From positions 1 to 64,000 of the forward strand of contig CANGOP010000009.1 of the NCBI GenBank assembly GCA_947455595.1: DNA of 64,000 bases. Direction: 5' to 3'. Shown one piece after another: positions 43,850 to 51,721 of this stretch. Under the pieces are notes generated by a model. It made no database searches. It saw only the letters and a program-made list of their open reading frames with translations, and had not been told where the DNA came from. A program made the translations under genes and the position numbers. The DNA is from Gammaproteobacteria bacterium. GTDB taxonomy: Bacteria > Pseudomonadota > Gammaproteobacteria > Steroidobacterales > Steroidobacteraceae. Positions within the stretch are counted from its first letter, which is position 1; each line of letters begins with the position of its first letter.

Positions 43850-43885
43850 GCCGCATCGCAAAAATTGGCGGGCGTGGAGTACCAC

Positions 43886-44635
43886 ATGCGCAAGATTCTG
43901 GTTGGAGTGAAGCGGGTCGTTGATTACAACGTCCGGGTCCGGGTCAAGCCGGACGGTTCGGGCGTTGCGCTCGAAGGCGTGAAGATGAGCGTAAATCCTT
44001 TTGATGAAATCGCGCTGGAAGAGGCGCTGCGCATCAAGGAACGCGGCGAAGCGGCGGAAGTCGTGGCCGTGTCGATCGGTCCGGATGATGCCCAGCAGCA
44101 GCTGCGCACCGCGCTCGCGATGGGCGCCGACCGCGCCATCCTCGTGAAGGTGACGGACGCCGTCGACCCCTTGGTCGCCTCGCGTGTGCTCACCGAGATC
44201 GCGAAGAAGGAAAACGCTGACCTCGTGATCCTGGGCAAGCAGGCGATCGATGACGATGCTGCGCAAACAGCGCCGATGGTGGCCGCTCTGTGGGGCCGTC
44301 CGCAGGCCACCTTCGCCTCGAAGATCGAGATCAACGGTGCAACGGCCGTCGTGACGCGTGAAGTCGATGCCGGCCTTGAGACCATCGAAGTCGATCTGCC
44401 GGCTGTGTTCAGCGCAGATCTGCGCTTGAACGAGCCACGCTATGTGAAGCTGCCGGACATCATGAAGGCCAAGAAGAAGCCGCTCGATGTCGTCGAGTTC
44501 GCCTCCTTAGGTGTGGCGGCGGACGTGGGCTTGAAGACCACGTTTGTCGAACCGCCCAAGCCACGCGCGAAGGGCATCGTGGTCAAGGACGTCGCCGAAC
44601 TGGTCGACGCGCTCAAGAAGAAGGGGCTGGTCTGA
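43886..44635 (+). CDS. etfB: Electron transfer flavoprotein beta subunit
   Basis: A 249-residue ETF beta subunit. MRKILVGVKRVVDYNVRVRV, SVNPFDEIALEEALR, the AMP-binding loop GADRAILV and LGKQAIDDDAAQTAPMVAAL are characteristic. With EtfA it passes electrons from acyl-CoA dehydrogenases to ETF-quinone oxidoreductase. ATG 43886 gives the standard start. Overlaps etfA (TGATGA). Confidence 0.96.
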   Translation: MRKILVGVKRVVDYNVRVRVKPDGSGVALEGVKMSVNPFDEIALEEALRIKERGEAAEVVAVSIGPDDAQQQLRTALAMGADRAILVKVTDAVDPLVASRVLTEIAKKENADLVILGKQAIDDDAAQTAPMVAALWGRPQATFASKIEINGATAVVTREVDAGLETIEVDLPAVFSADLRLNEPRYVKLPDIMKAKKKPLDVVEFASLGVAADVGLKTTFVEPPKPRAKGIVVKDVAELVDALKKKGLV

Positions 44636-45579
44636 TGAGCAAGATTCTGATCGTTGCCGAACACGACGGCACCACACTCAACCAAGCCACGGCCCGCGCC
44701 GTGACCTGCGCCCGGCAGATCCCGGCGGCCCATGTCACCGTCGCCGTCTTCGCTGCGGATCCGGCGGCTGTGGCCGCGGCTGCCGCCGCGCTCGTCGGCG
44801 TCGATGCGGTCGTGACGGTGGCACATGCGGCCAACGCCTCCCCTTTGGCCGCCACGCTGGCGCCGCAGGTGGTTGCCTTGGCGTCGGGCTACACGCACGT
44901 CTTCGCGGCCTCCACGGCGTTTGGCAAGGATCTCTTGCCGCGCGTCGCCGCCTTGCTCGGCGTGCCGCAGATCTCCGACGCCATGGCGGTGGTGGGTGCG
45001 TACTCCTTCAAGCGTCCGACCTACGCGGGCAACGCGATCGTCACCTTGGAAGCACCGGCCGACCGCACGCTCGTCGCGACGGTGCGCAGCGCGAGCTTCG
45101 AGCCCGCCGCTCAGGGTGGCAGCGCGCCGATCAGCGCCGCCACGGTGACGGCCGACCTGCCGACGCACACGCGCTTTGTGGGTCTGTCGGCGTCGCCCAA
45201 GAGCGATCGCCCGGATCTCGCGTCCGCCGCGAAGGTCGTCTCGGGTGGCCGTGCGCTCGCCTCGAAGGAAAACTTCAATATCGTCTATAGCCTCGCCGGC
45301 AAGATGGGCGCAGCGGTGGGTGCGTCGCGTGCAGCGGTGGATGCCGGTTACGCGTCGAACGAGTTGCAGGTCGGTCAGACCGGCAAAATCATCGCGCCGG
45401 ATCTGTACGTCGCGGTCGGTATCTCGGGTGCGATCCAACATCTGACGGGCATCAAGGATGCCAAGACGATCGTGGCGATCAACAAAGATCCTGAAGCCCC
45501 GATTTTCGAAGTCGCGGACTTCGGGCTCGTAGCGGACTTGTTCGTCGCGGTGCCTGAGATCGAAAAAGCGCTCGGCTGA
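44635..45579 (+). CDS. etfA: Electron transfer flavoprotein alpha subunit
   Basis: A 314-residue FAD-binding ETF alpha subunit. The C-terminal domain shows [74 protein letters not shown] and [20 protein letters not shown], the standard FAD-domain blocks. A strong terminator lies 45 bp after its stop, so etfBA is a two-gene operon. Confidence 0.96.
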
Positions 45580-45623: not shown

Positions 45624-45654
45624 ACGGCCCGCCTCGTGCGGGCCGTTTTGTTTT
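45624..45654 (+). terminator. Intrinsic terminator of etfBA
   Basis: ACGGCCCGC, a five-base loop CTCGT and GCGGGCCGT are followed by a TTTGTTTT tract, 45 bp after the etfA stop. Confidence 0.9.
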
Positions 45655-45806: not shown

Positions 45807-47150
45807 ATGCGCCTATCCGTCACTCCGCGTCTGCGCCGGCTCGCCGGCTGGGTGTTCGCGTTGAGTCTCGCCGCCTCGACGGCGCAAGCCGTTCCGAGCT
45901 TCACGCGCCAAACGGGCGTCGCCTGCGAGCAATGCCATACCGTGGCTTATGGCCCGGCTCTGACACCGTACGGCCGACAGTTCAAATTGAACGGCTACAC
46001 GTGGGGCACGAGCGCACTGCCGTTATCCTTCATGGTGCAGGGCGGCTACACCCACACCGGGAAGGATCAGCCGGATCCGCCCGCCGATCACACGTCGGTG
46101 AATAACAATCTATCGGTCGATCAAGTCAGCCTCTTCTACGGCGGCAAGCTGAGCGAGCATCTGGGAGCTTTTGCTCAGTTCACCTACAGCGGACCGGATC
46201 GTGCGTTCTCGTGGGACAACCTCGATGTTCGCTACGCCCGCGCCGTGTCGTTCGGCAACCACTCGGCCGTAGTCGGCGTTAGCCTGAACAACAACCCCAC
46301 GGTGCAGGACTTGTGGAACTCCACACCTGCCTGGGGCTTCCCGTACATCAGTTCGGCGCTCGCCCCGGGTCCCGCGGCCGGAACGCTGGTCACCGGCCTT
46401 GGCGGCACGGTACTCGGCACGAGCGCTTACGCCATGTTCGACGATCACTGGTACGTGGAAGTAGGCGGCTACCGCGGCCTTGCCGACCGTTGGCTCGGCA
46501 ATGTCGGCGCCGGTGCCGATGCCAGCCCCCACCTTGACGGCGTCGCACCGTATGTGCGGGCGGCTTATCAATGGGACGGTGAAGTTCACCACGGTTCCAT
46601 CGGGGTGTTGTCGCTGGCCGCGAATCTGCACCCGGATCCGGCCGACCCCGCGACCGACCGCTACGTGGACACGGGCCTCGATGCAACCTACCAGTGGGCA
46701 CCGGGCAATGGGCACGCAGTCGCCGCGAACGCCGCGTTCATCCACGAGAAGCGCTCACTGAATGCCAGTTTCGCCCAAGAGGCGGTGTCGAGCGCGGACC
46801 AAACCGTCGATTCCCTGCTGATCGATGCCACGTACGTGTACCGCGCGACCTGGTCAGCCGGGATCGGGTACTTCGATATCCACGGCACGAGCGACCCCTT
46901 GGTGTATACGCCCGACCCCTTCAGCGGCAGCGCCACCGGCAGCCCCGACAGTCGTGGCACAACGCTGAAGCTCGAGTACATCCCCTGGGGCAAAGCCACC
47001 ACCACAAAACCGTCCTGGCAGAACCTCCGGGTCGGCGTGGAGTACACGGCGTATTCGACCTTCAACGGGGCAAGCCGCAACTACGACGGCGCCGGACGCA
47101 ACGCCAGTGACAACAACACGCTCTTCCTCTACTTCTGGATCATCCATTGA
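45807..47150 (+). CDS. c-type cytochrome with outer-membrane beta-barrel-like domain
   Basis: A 447-residue exported protein. Residues 1-28 form a signal peptide ending TAQA; a single haem motif CEQCH (Cys40, Cys43, His44) follows directly within QTGVACEQCHTVAYGPALTP. The rest is rich in alternating aromatic/polar strands with short turns and ends with NNTLFLYFWIIH, typical of beta barrels. GAGGAGA precedes ATG 45807; the frame upstream is not coding. Similar porin-like cytochromes occur in metal-oxidising and denitrifying proteobacteria. Next to azurin, it suggests electron passage between periplasmic azurin and an outer-membrane haem. That role is inference. Confidence 0.75.
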   Translation: MRLSVTPRLRRLAGWVFALSLAASTAQAVPSFTRQTGVACEQCHTVAYGPALTPYGRQFKLNGYTWGTSALPLSFMVQGGYTHTGKDQPDPPADHTSVNNNLSVDQVSLFYGGKLSEHLGAFAQFTYSGPDRAFSWDNLDVRYARAVSFGNHSAVVGVSLNNNPTVQDLWNSTPAWGFPYISSALAPGPAAGTLVTGLGGTVLGTSAYAMFDDHWYVEVGGYRGLADRWLGNVGAGADASPHLDGVAPYVRAAYQWDGEVHHGSIGVLSLAANLHPDPADPATDRYVDTGLDATYQWAPGNGHAVAANAAFIHEKRSLNASFAQEAVSSADQTVDSLLIDATYVYRATWSAGIGYFDIHGTSDPLVYTPDPFSGSATGSPDSRGTTLKLEYIPWGKATTTKPSWQNLRVGVEYTAYSTFNGASRNYDGAGRNASDNNTLFLYFWIIH

Positions 47151-47161
47151 GGTCTCATCCC

Positions 47162-47620
47162 ATGCGCACCTGGCCACTCTCCTCGCTCGCGGTCCTCGGT
47201 CTCCTGAGCTTAAGCCCCGTCGTCTACGCGGATGGCTGTGCCTTAAGCATTGATGCGAACGATGCGATGCAATATTCCGTGAAACATCTGGAGGTGCCGG
47301 CCAGCTGTACTGACGTGACGCTGACCTTGCACCACATCGGCAAACTGCCCGTCAAAGCGATGGGACATAACTGGGTGTTGACACGCAAGGCGGATGCGGC
47401 CGCCGTCGCGTCGGCGGGTGCGGCCGCGGGCGCCGCGAAGGAGTATCTGCCCAGTGGCGACGCCCGCGTCATCGCCGCCACCAAACTGATCGGCGGCGGC
47501 GAAAGCGCCTCCGTCACTTTCTCGACCGCCGCGTTGAAGGCCAGTGAGGACTACAGCTACTTCTGCTCCTTCCCCGGTCATGCCTCGATGATGAAGGGAA
47601 CCCTCACGCTCGCGAAGTAA
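47162..47620 (+). CDS. azu: Azurin
   Basis: A 152-residue precursor of the blue copper protein azurin. Signal peptide to about residue 23 (VVYA/DGC). Copper ligands His69 (in GHNWVL), Cys135, His140 and Met144 (in CSFPGHASMMKG) are all present, as is the disulfide pair Cys26-Cys49. An Ala-rich loop (AAAVASAGAAAGAAKEYLPS) is in the usual flap region. It shuttles electrons in the periplasm, here probably with the cytochrome/barrel protein 11 bp upstream. Terminator 14 bp downstream. Confidence 0.95.
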   Translation: MRTWPLSSLAVLGLLSLSPVVYADGCALSIDANDAMQYSVKHLEVPASCTDVTLTLHHIGKLPVKAMGHNWVLTRKADAAAVASAGAAAGAAKEYLPSGDARVIAATKLIGGGESASVTFSTAALKASEDYSYFCSFPGHASMMKGTLTLAK

Positions 47621-47633
47621 CGGCGCCCAACAC

Positions 47634-47665
47634 AAAGGCCCGGTCAGTCACCTGACCGGGCCTTT
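47634..47665. terminator. Bidirectional intrinsic terminator between azurin and peroxiredoxin
   Basis: AAAGGCCCGGTCAG, loop TCAC, CTGACCGGGCCTTT: a 14-bp stem with A/T ends, followed by GCTTTT on the plus strand. It serves azurin from the left and the convergent peroxiredoxin gene (stop at 47686) from the right. Confidence 0.92.
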
Positions 47666-47685
47666 GCTTTTGATCGACGCGATGC

Positions 47686-48168
47686 TTAGAGCGACTCGAG
47701 CACGTGCTCCGCGGTGCTGACCTTAAACTCACCGCCGTTCTCGACGTGCAACGCCGTGACCACACCATCCTTGGCCACCAGCGCGAAACGCTTACCGCGC
47801 ACGCCCATCCCAAAGCCGGTGGCATCCAACTCAAGACCGAGCGCGCGCACGAAGTCTGCATTGCCATCGGCGAGCAGCGTGATGGCCTCACCCGCGTGGC
47901 TGGCCTTACCCCAGGCGTCCATCACGAAGACATCGTTCACCGCCGTGCAGGCGATGGTGTCGACGCCCTTCGCCTTCAACGCATCCGCATGGCTGACAAA
48001 GCCCGGCAAGTGCTTGGCGTGACAGGTCGGCGTGAACGCACCCGGCACGGAGAACAACACGACGGTCTTACCCGCCGTCAACTCAGCCACCGTCACGTTG
48101 GCAGGGCCATCCTTCGTCATGTGCTTGAAGGTTGCTTCCGGCAATTTGTCACCGACTTGAATCGTCAT
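47686..48168 (-). CDS. Peroxiredoxin, Prx5 family
   Basis: A 160-residue thiol peroxidase. The peroxidatic Cys49 is in PGAFTPTCHAKHLPGF, the Prx5 motif, with a second Cys74 in TIACTAVND. MTIQVGDKLPEATF is the usual start and AGGA lies eight nucleotides upstream. It reduces H2O2 and alkyl hydroperoxides, probably with glutathione/glutaredoxin. Cytoplasmic, monocistronic, sharing the terminator with azurin. Confidence 0.94.
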   Translation of the reverse strand: MTIQVGDKLPEATFKHMTKDGPANVTVAELTAGKTVVLFSVPGAFTPTCHAKHLPGFVSHADALKAKGVDTIACTAVNDVFVMDAWGKASHAGEAITLLADGNADFVRALGLELDATGFGMGVRGKRFALVAKDGVVTALHVENGGEFKVSTAEHVLESL

Positions 48169-49143: not shown

Positions 49144-50388
49144 TCAGCCCTGCGGCGCGTCGAGCGACGGCAACGCGATCAGCCAGAGGTTAGCGGCGTT
49201 TGCCATCCGCTTGTCCGACTTGGCCTTGTTGAAGGCCTCGATCGCTTTGTCCTTCTTGCCGGCGTGCAGGTAGGCGATGCCTAAGGTCATGTAGGCATCA
49301 TCCACGCGCTTGACCTTGACGATCCGCTCGTCGGTCAGGCCGCGCTCGATGGCTTCGATCGCCTTGTCGTACTCGCCGAAGCCCAAGTACGCGAGACCCA
49401 CCTTCACGTCCGCCTGCCCGTTCTTGCCCGCGCGGGCTTCCTTATCGAGCGACGGCAACAACTTCTTGTCTTCAGCCGTCAGCGTCTTGGCCTGTGCCAA
49501 GAGCTTGCTGTTGCGATCGGTCGCCGCAATGAACTTGACCACATCGCGCTTCTGACCCTGTTCGATGACCTTGAGCGCTTCCGCCGGTGCACCGGCATCG
49601 ATCGCGCCGTCCGTGTAGTTCACGTACTCGCTCTCGCGAGTCATTTCGTTACGATCGAACAGCAGGCGATACATGTTCAGCATCGCCAGTGGCTCGGAAT
49701 CGGCTTCGTAGATGCCGATCAGATCCACTACGTACTCCCGCTTCGGGAACTTCGTCACGAGCGTTTCCATCACTGCAAGGCGCTTGGCCTTGTTCTCGGT
49801 GCGGTAGTACGCGACGTTCAACTGCTTGAGCGTGTCTTCCTTCGGCTCCGGCGTGGCGGCCGCAATTTTCTCAAGCCAAGGGATCGCGCCCGGGTAATCC
49901 TGTTGGATTAACATGATCTGCGAGCCCAGCGTGTAGGCATCGACGCTCTTCGAGGCATCGGCCCACTTGCCCACCCAGACCAACGCCTTGTCGTACGTCT
50001 TGTTCTGGGCACTGATCTGGGCCAGCGCCTTATAGTCCTTGACGCGTTCGTCATCGGTCATGTTCGGCGCGGCGTCGAGCAGCTGCTCCGTGAACTCCGC
50101 ATACAGGTTGAAGTCCTGCTTCTTGGCCGCGGCGTAGGTCATCATGCGCAAGGAGGTTTCCTTGTCGTACGGCGTCTTGGCAGCCGCCAAGCCCGCCTTG
50201 GCGAGCGTGAGCCCGCCATCGAAGTCACCCTTCGCCATCGCGTCCTGCGCCGGCTTCAACTGCTTGGCGACGGCTTCCGTCAGAGATTCCTTCTTCTCCT
50301 TCTCTGCCGCACCCGCCGAGGTGGCGACCATGATCGCCAGAAAACCCGCCATCAGCGGGGCCTTCATTCGCGTAACCCAGTTATTCAT
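49144..50388 (-). CDS. Periplasmic tetratricopeptide-repeat protein, copy 1
   Basis: A 414-residue protein with a signal peptide (MKAPLMAGFLAIMVATSAGA), a Lys/Glu-rich start, and helical repeats of TPR type (for example DVKVGLAYLGFGEYDKAIEA then DAYMTLGIAYLHAGKKDKAI near the end). It is paralogous to the next gene upstream: both share the FPKREYVVDLI / FPKKEWFQAVL region and the GQADVKVGLAYLG / GETDVKLGLRYYS region. GAGG precedes ATG 50388. Such TPR proteins follow exbD genes in several gammaproteobacteria, and may organise TonB-linked transport; the function is not established. Confidence 0.82.
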   Translation of the reverse strand: MNNWVTRMKAPLMAGFLAIMVATSAGAAEKEKKESLTEAVAKQLKPAQDAMAKGDFDGGLTLAKAGLAAAKTPYDKETSLRMMTYAAAKKQDFNLYAEFTEQLLDAAPNMTDDERVKDYKALAQISAQNKTYDKALVWVGKWADASKSVDAYTLGSQIMLIQQDYPGAIPWLEKIAAATPEPKEDTLKQLNVAYYRTENKAKRLAVMETLVTKFPKREYVVDLIGIYEADSEPLAMLNMYRLLFDRNEMTRESEYVNYTDGAIDAGAPAEALKVIEQGQKRDVVKFIAATDRNSKLLAQAKTLTAEDKKLLPSLDKEARAGKNGQADVKVGLAYLGFGEYDKAIEAIERGLTDERIVKVKRVDDAYMTLGIAYLHAGKKDKAIEAFNKAKSDKRMANAANLWLIALPSLDAPQG

Positions 50389-50416: not shown

Positions 50417-51637
50417 TCAGTTGCCCGCCCACATCTTCGCAGCCACGGCCATGCGCGGGTCGGCCTTCGCCGCAGCGAACGCCTTATCCGCTTCAGCCTT
50501 CTTCTTCAACTTCGTGAGGCAGATACCCAGGACCAAGTTGGCTTCATCTGGACGACGAACCTTGGCCACGTGATCGGCCGACAGACCGCGGGTGAGTGCT
50601 TCTGCTGCCTTGTCGTACTGACCCATCGAGTAGTAGCGCAGGCCGAGCTTGACGTCGGTCTCGCCGTTCTTACCGGCCTTTGACTCCGCATCGAGCTGCG
50701 TGACGGTCTTCGCGTCTTCCGCAGCGCGGTCCTTTGCCTGCTTCATCAGGCTCTCAGCCTTGTCCTTACCCTTTGCGCCGATCGCCTTCTTCGAAAAGGC
50801 CTTCTCCAGCACGTGCTGGGCTTCCGCCGTCGTGCCTTCCGAGAGCGCCAAGTCAGCGAGCTTGGTGTAGTCGCCCTCGTCAGCCAGGAAGTCACGCTCG
50901 TAACCGAAACGGAGCACGCCGAGCATGGCCAGATCATCCGGCTTCTTCGGCTCGAGATCCGCAAGCACCGCCTGGAACCATTCCTTCTTCGGGAAGCGGC
51001 GCAGCAGCTCCTCCGCTACGCTCGCCGCCTTCGCCGCCTGCTTACCCTGCGTGTAGCAGGTGTAACGCAACTTGAGCGCCGACTCACCCGCTTCCTTGCC
51101 TGCCGGCGCCGCGCGGTCGATCGACTCCAAGGCACCCGTGCAGTCGTGCGCACCGTACTGCAGCTGAGCCAAGAGTTCCCAATCGGCAGGGCTACCGGCG
51201 CCGGCCGCCATGTACGACTTCATCTCGGTGACCGCCTTGTCGTAGTGGTTCGTCGCCGCATAGATCGGCGCCAACGACTTGTGGAACTGCACCTTCTCAG
51301 CCGCCGAGACGCCCTCGGTGTTCAACAGCTGTTCCAACGCTTCCTGCTGGTCCTGCACCTTGCCCGACGCACCGGCCACGACGAGGAGCAACTTCAGCGC
51401 GGCGCTCTTCTCAAAGCCCGACTTCGCGACCGAGTGCGCTTCCTTGGCCGAACTCAGCGCCTTGCCCATGTCATGGGCTTTGTACGCCGTCACGCCCGCG
51501 TTGTACTTCTCAGAGAACTCCGCGGAGGTCTGCGCCTGCGCATAGGCGCCCTGCGAGGCCAAGGTCGCGACGCCGAGAAGACCGGCGACAAGGAGTCCGC
51601 GCGTGGCGCGCGAAAGAACAGTGGCGAGCTTCGTCAT
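50417..51637 (-). CDS. Periplasmic tetratricopeptide-repeat protein, copy 2
   Basis: A 406-residue exported TPR-like protein: signal peptide about residues 1-33 (RGLLVAGLLGVATLASQGAY), then helical repeats; TDVKLGLRYYSMGQYDKAAE and LVLGICLTKLKKKAEADKAF are the clearest. Paralogue of the following gene. ATG 51637 has GAGG eight nucleotides upstream. A terminator (51722-51755) separates it from exbD, so it is probably transcribed on its own as well as by readthrough. Confidence 0.82.
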   Translation of the reverse strand: MTKLATVLSRATRGLLVAGLLGVATLASQGAYAQAQTSAEFSEKYNAGVTAYKAHDMGKALSSAKEAHSVAKSGFEKSAALKLLLVVAGASGKVQDQQEALEQLLNTEGVSAAEKVQFHKSLAPIYAATNHYDKAVTEMKSYMAAGAGSPADWELLAQLQYGAHDCTGALESIDRAAPAGKEAGESALKLRYTCYTQGKQAAKAASVAEELLRRFPKKEWFQAVLADLEPKKPDDLAMLGVLRFGYERDFLADEGDYTKLADLALSEGTTAEAQHVLEKAFSKKAIGAKGKDKAESLMKQAKDRAAEDAKTVTQLDAESKAGKNGETDVKLGLRYYSMGQYDKAAEALTRGLSADHVAKVRRPDEANLVLGICLTKLKKKAEADKAFAAAKADPRMAVAAKMWAGN

Positions 51638-51721
51638 CGTATACCTCGGTAAAATCACTGAAAATCAAAAATCTGGTGTTGGGTCGTGCCACGCGATCGG
51701 TAAAGACCGCCATCGACACCC

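Follow-up and report, generated by a model that had tools for sequence, protein, structure and literature searches.

The locus and its two genes

The window (the whole stretch of 64,000 nucleotides that was analysed) carries on its forward strand a gene for a porin-like protein with a single haem site, directly followed by a gene for azurin. The pair and the features around it are the following:

43883-45579: etfB and etfA, upstream of the pair
45624..45646, + strand: terminator-like hairpin between etfA and the pair (consensus match only)
45807..47150, + strand: Cyc2-like fused monohaem cytochrome-porin, 447 aa (translation, AlphaFold2 barrel, 33% identity to a rus-cluster Cyc2)
45807..45890, + strand: putative signal peptide, residues 1-28, ending TAQA/VPSF (by eye)
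45924..45938, + strand: haem c attachment site CEQCH, residues 40-44 (translation)
46023..47144, + strand: residues 73-446, predicted to form a beta barrel of 16 strands (strands 47-420 in the AlphaFold2 model of the mature protein, porin matches)
47162..47620, + strand: azurin, 152 aa, putative signal peptide at residues 1-23 by eye (TIGR02695 5.7e-55, PF00127 1e-19)
47633..47666, + strand: terminator-like hairpin after azurin, 15 pairs (consensus match only)
47686-48168, opposite strand to the pair: redoxin, downstream of the pair

An earlier note on this DNA had claimed that one protein joins a CxxCH site near its mature N-terminus to a barrel, and the translation and the predicted structure bear this out. 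CEQCH is the sole CxxCH of the 447-residue protein; its two cysteines and its histidine are kept in all 104 aligned relatives, which were picked for having CxxCH. The list of open reading frames gives a longer frame from 45615, via an upstream TTG. The ATG at 45807 is the likely start, because the signal peptide comes right after it. Profile searches matched the protein to no Pfam or NCBIfam family, and single-sequence and profile searches found no relative in the PDB. For the structure prediction that the earlier note had proposed for 45807-47150, the input was an alignment termed A3, with 81 rows comprising the mature window protein and 80 relatives. The AlphaFold2 model has 16 strands (mean pLDDT 94.6, pTM 0.91), so that a barrel is predicted with high confidence. 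Three short helices (4-10, 14-17 and 28-35 of the model) lie before the strands and around the haem site. In Foldseek and VIA-align comparisons the matches are ordinary 16-strand porins of the OmpC/OmpF type, the best VIA-align row being OmpC (Z 22.6, rmsd 3.6, 299 residues). We are confident in the architecture that the model predicts, a 16-strand porin with a small N-terminal helical haem domain. The protein would presumably be loaded with haem, reside in the outer membrane and carry its haem in the barrel. Lys60 is invariant (104/104 sequences) and Met76, in strand 1, is conserved in 98 of the 104; either residue may be the sixth haem ligand, to judge from this conservation.

The azurin gene starts 11 bp past the cytochrome-porin stop, where the earlier note had placed it. 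Its product matches TIGR02695 over the full length, with 185 bits against a cut-off of 105.1, and its His69, Cys135, His140 and Met144 occupy the positions of the azurin copper ligands. Rusticyanin was rejected as its identity (TIGR03095 scores 14 bits against a cut-off of 146.7), and the host genome gave no rusticyanin match. The 16 other azurins that are paired with a porin of this kind (for example at loci L008, L009, L039 and L041) have C-termini 5-33 residues longer than that of the window azurin, an extension which perhaps serves docking. The only other Copper-bind match in the host genome is a 564-residue protein (L113 1330-3024, host contig C5) which combines a plastocyanin-like domain with, by eye, an apparent beta-helix (NosD-like) part.

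Terminator-like hairpins flank the pair on both sides, which makes a two-gene transcript the natural reading; the scan of the stretch gave three such sites against 1.5 expected by chance. No sigma-70-like promoter was found by a scan of the stretch around the pair. Judged from the gene order and the hairpins, the arrangement suggests that cytochrome-porin and azurin form a two-gene unit. Two adjoining TPR proteins with signal-like starts, similar to each other, are encoded at 49144-50388 and 50417-51658 on the reverse strand; both also lie near the pair in G006 (L032) and G008 (L033). Apart from G005, G006 and G008, no genome was found to have the pair's window neighbours close to it (many loci offer only 1.5 kb of flank), so that the pair is kept more widely than its surroundings.

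Relation to Cyc2 and to other outer-membrane systems

Cyc2 proteins are described (PMC8406198, in excerpt) as having a signal peptide, a single CXXCH preceded by the motif AXPXFAR[Q/K][T/Y] and followed after four residues by PXL, and a porin of 16 strands. The window protein reads AVPSFTRQT and deviates from the strict motif at a single residue (FTRQT), while its PXL is PAL (within GPALT) and stands two residues further from CXXCH than described. Its 447 residues, including the signal peptide recognised by eye, exceed the Cyc2 minimum of 365. The strict motif is failed as well by 13 of the 17 azurin-linked relatives and by both Cyc2 homologues of genome G358, including the copy in a rus-type cluster.

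This cluster was located by seeking rusticyanin in 369 genomes of the class and searching the four top-scoring ones with A3. Matches appeared in one of the four, G358, which has two Cyc2 homologues, one of them 7 kb from a rusticyanin-like gene. On one strand the stretch carries a Cyc2-like gene, then COX2, COX1, a rusticyanin-like Copper-bind gene and SCO1 (Pfam), and further along a Cytochrom_C protein with two matching stretches (Pfam); judged by this gene content it is a rus-type cluster. Directly after Cyc2 lies a 190-aa protein with no Pfam match (L154 16773-17342, reverse strand), possibly the cupredoxin Cup. Residues 18 to 446 of the window protein align with the Cyc2 of this cluster, at 33% identity and an E-value of 1e-67.

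By its sequence, then, the window protein is a Cyc2 homologue of a divergent subtype and not Cyc2 in the strict published sense; we prefer the label of homologue because one motif residue is missed and PXL is shifted by two. The spacing from haem to PxL splits the tree of 102 non-redundant relatives, among the matches listed, with a single change into a PxL and a GPxLT type. The rus-cluster Cyc2 falls on the PxL side, and the window protein on the GPxLT side, alongside many alphaproteobacterial proteins. One Cyc2-like frame of the PxL type (L015, G042) contains one in-frame TAA, which probably reflects decay of the gene or a mistake in the assembly.

The Cyc2 proteins of A. ferrooxidans and M. 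ferrooxydans PV-1 (PMC8406198, PMC7029218, both in excerpt) share with the window protein the signal peptide, the N-terminal CXXCH and the 16-strand barrel. A PXL follows the haem site in both, two residues further on in the window protein, which also differs in having FTRQT and an azurin partner. The rus operon, cyc2-cyc1-cup-cox-rus (PMC10654088, in excerpt), likewise encodes periplasmic carriers in the same unit as its Cyc2-type protein, and its rusticyanin, like azurin, is a blue copper protein. The window unit, however, has only two genes, with azurin for rusticyanin and with the oxidases elsewhere in the genome. MtrAB, PioAB and MtoAB also move electrons through the outer membrane by means of a barrel and a haem protein (PMC10654088, in excerpt). 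They use a separate multihaem cytochrome and a barrel of ~26 strands, where the window protein has one haem fused to 16 strands. Within the azurin family (TIGR02695), the azurins of the window's clade are distinguished by their fixed place downstream of a cytochrome-porin.

The earlier note had also proposed a minimal electron route between the periplasm and the cell surface. Analogy with the description of the Cyc2 family (PMC8406198, in excerpt) supports a one-haem route of this kind; it is already known from Cyc2, which the note did not recognise, and the novelty lies in azurin as the partner.

Conservation of the pair and the carrier slot in relatives

Among the matches listed, 20 distinct loci, distinguished by their contigs, share at least 50% identity with the window porin. 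Azurin is the next gene in 17 of them and absent in two (G003 and G009), and one locus (L038) is untestable, with 123 bases of contig left. The pair is thus conserved across genomes, in 17 of 19 testable loci, and a chance pairing is rejected on this count. With the barrel predicted and the pair conserved, the earlier note withstands both of the refutation tests that it had set. The two proteins stay together at 48-63% identity. All 17 azurin-linked porins fall into one group of 20 rows, supported by SH-aLRT values of 96 and 99 in two trees. The other three rows are L038, where the contig ends, L046, where no azurin is seen within the 500 bases of remaining contig, and L011 (G003). The presence or absence of azurin requires three changes on the porin tree, which a single gain together with two losses would, for instance, account for. 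In G003, an azurin of the paired kind lies at another place in the genome. The Cyc2 of G009 is a fragment at the edge of a contig, and the search of that genome yielded no azurin.

The azurin tree, from which L135 was left out as it is cut off before the copper site, places the paired azurins and that of G003 in a modestly supported (80/77) group of 18. The window azurin is the basal member of this group, and the row closest to it by path belongs to an unpaired azurin. Because of this position and the modest support, azurin may have been replaced later at the window locus. No Cyc2-like frame was found in 20 stretches of 2.5-5.5 kb around azurins that do not adjoin the porin.

Within the window's genus, azurin occurs in nine of ten genomes that have the Cyc2 subtype and in none of the five without it (Fisher p 0.002, uncorrected for kinship and therefore flattering, since the genomes are related). 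The 11 genomes with the pair among 98 searched have one azurin match each. Azurin as the sole mark of the module is rejected: 12 genomes of the same family carry azurin (E <= 0.001; 11 over the cut-off) without the Cyc2 subtype.

The place occupied by azurin was compared in a wider set of relatives. We define the slot as the first same-strand gene to follow the porin within 400 bases, and label azurins in it with a profile built from the clade's own azurins. The count covers 102 loci, two of them untestable at contig ends. Left out were the window's own locus found again (L001, L112), seven duplicates (L032, L033, L035, L036, L040, L043, L045), fragments or broken frames (L014, L015, L027) and two distant loci (L028, L029). 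One of the searches behind the count gave the best 80 of at least 588 loci, so that distant relatives are under-sampled. Among the matches listed, the 100 testable relatives have azurin in the slot in 17 cases, a haem c protein in 47 and neither in 36. The haem proteins comprise 24 with two CxxCH and 23 with one, and all but one of the 47 match Cytochrom_C. Only five of the 36 loci with neither carrier have a cytochrome c elsewhere within 3 kb, which indicates that an adjacent carrier is not essential.

The order of porin and then cytochrome in the relatives resembles cyc2-cyc1, the order in the rus operon of Acidithiobacillus (PMC10654088, in excerpt). Since a cytochrome fills the slot in many relatives, azurin occupies what is there the cytochrome's place. 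The near tree neighbours of the azurin clade include loci with neither carrier (L047), for which reason two histories are left standing: azurin may have displaced a cytochrome or may have entered an empty slot.

A possible route for electrons and its alternatives

We propose that the pair is a two-gene module for electron uptake, from Fe2+ via the haem and azurin to the oxidases, and give this reading a probability of roughly 0.52. A small extracellular reductant, most likely Fe2+, would enter the pore and reduce the haem at its periplasmic end. Azurin, made from the same unit, would collect the electron in the periplasm and pass it to the respiratory chain, where a cbb3- or aa3-type oxidase would transfer it to oxygen. 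The transfer to azurin, the inward direction and Fe2+ as the substrate are the parts of this scheme that we infer. Azurin has a potential of ~300 mV. With Mariprofundus Cyc2 at 208 mV (PMC8406198, in excerpt), the steps would be downhill.

The host genome offers what such a route would use. The assembly of 3.04 Mb, ~88% complete, encodes two haem-copper oxidases (cbb3- and aa3-type by eye) and CcmH for haem attachment. It also has, away from the pair, a di-haem c-type cytochrome (G000:C2:223367-224014). RuBisCO has no match in this ~88% complete assembly; autotrophy by RuBisCO is rejected on that basis, and classic chemolithoautotrophy is unlikely. A role of azurin with a nitrite reductase was likewise rejected, as NirS and NirK gave only weak matches below the cut-off in the same ~88% complete assembly. 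With CcmH present, neither NirS nor NirK over the cut-off and no RuBisCO, the host would be an oxygen-respiring heterotroph which supplements its energy, if the inference of electron uptake holds.

Besides the oxidases, CcmH and the downhill potentials, uptake is favoured by the fold and haem site, the homology to the rus-cluster Cyc2, the constancy of azurin at the testable loci, its association with the subtype in the genus and the haem c proteins in the slot of relatives. Against it, the subtype, whose oxidation of iron is putative, has a branch of its own in the tree, away from that of the rus-cluster Cyc2. The di-haem cytochrome of the host could be the true partner, more than a third of the relatives listed do without either adjacent carrier, and the window azurin, basal in its group, resembles unpaired ones; the missing RuBisCO also counts here.

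The same module may instead draw electrons inwards from a reductant other than iron, such as Cu(I), Mn(II), a thiol, a reduced phenol or a shuttle. The separate branch of the subtype and the RuBisCO-less host would fit this, and additional functions are allowed for where an organism has no known iron oxidation (PMC8406198, in excerpt). Yet the Cyc2 proteins named as tested in the published excerpts are iron oxidases and no result points to another substrate, and we regard a non-iron reductant as rather unlikely, if well worth bearing in mind. An outward flow, in which azurin reduces the pore haem and electrons exit to an extracellular acceptor or shuttle, is improbable in our view. Direction is not readable from sequence and azurin can exchange electrons both ways, but for a protein that would donate to minerals its potential of ~300 mV is high. 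The descriptions of Cyc2 homologues, moreover, present them as oxidases (PMC8406198, in excerpt).

The pair might also carry no meaningful net flow across the membrane, the haem domain gating the porin or sensing redox conditions while azurin sets the state of the haem. The likeness of the fold to ordinary porins and the small size of the haem domain are compatible with such a role; an adjoining haem c protein in 47 and an adjoining azurin in 17 of the 100 relatives listed form the pattern of a redox chain, and the gene order recalls cyc2-cyc1 of the rus operon (PMC10654088, in excerpt), which makes gating or sensing very improbable. Hardly to be expected, finally, is an adjacency without any functional link, with azurin serving other pathways. 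The pairs do form one clade, so that the adjacency arose few times, perhaps once, and the 12 azurin-bearing genomes of the family without the subtype agree with other uses of azurin. Nevertheless, the pair persists at 48-63% identity where other neighbours were found close to it in three genomes only (many loci offering only 1.5 kb of flank), and azurin tracks the porin within the genus.

Cyc2-like proteins, azurin and the combination of Cyc2 with rusticyanin in acidophiles are already known. No report of a Cyc2-azurin pair was found in literature on Cyc2 or porin-cytochromes with azurin or cupredoxins, a search conducted mostly outside subscription journals. What is new is the carrier swap, in which azurin stands where a Cyc2-type operon would have its cytochrome. 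Which carrier accepts electrons from Cyc2 in neutrophilic iron oxidisers is an open question (PMC7029218, PMC8406198, both in excerpt); a conserved two-gene unit which names a partner lets it be tested directly, and two small proteins suffice. The slot contents (azurin, di-haem c, mono-haem c) suggest what other Cyc2-like proteins may have as partners. The relaxed motif is a warning that strict motif filters overlook a Cyc2 subtype. On a larger scale, we tentatively suggest that the members of the Cyc2 superfamily form a modular device for electron uptake with an exchangeable periplasmic carrier, in which azurin displaced the cytochrome in this gammaproteobacterial clade and gave a two-gene iron-oxidation unit in RuBisCO-less lithoheterotrophs. 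If so, the strict filter would miss such organisms.

Cyc2-like homologues also occur on nine plasmid records. In all four plasmids inspected (Polymorphobacter, Caballeronia, Methylocystis and A. ferrooxidans) a c-type cytochrome is annotated downstream, in A. ferrooxidans ~500 bases after the Cyc2-like gene. The gene of the A. ferrooxidans plasmid (L114 4890-6257, CP084173.1) adjoins an annotated transposase, and a match on a plasmid of Acidiphilium cryptum equals it in score and identity, from which the gene seems to travel; the other plasmid records concerned are NC_009469.1 and NC_015179.1. On the Caballeronia plasmid (L116 3939-6956), the Cyc2-like gene has a high-potential iron-sulfur protein upstream and the c-type cytochrome downstream, and the former may represent a third carrier type for the module.
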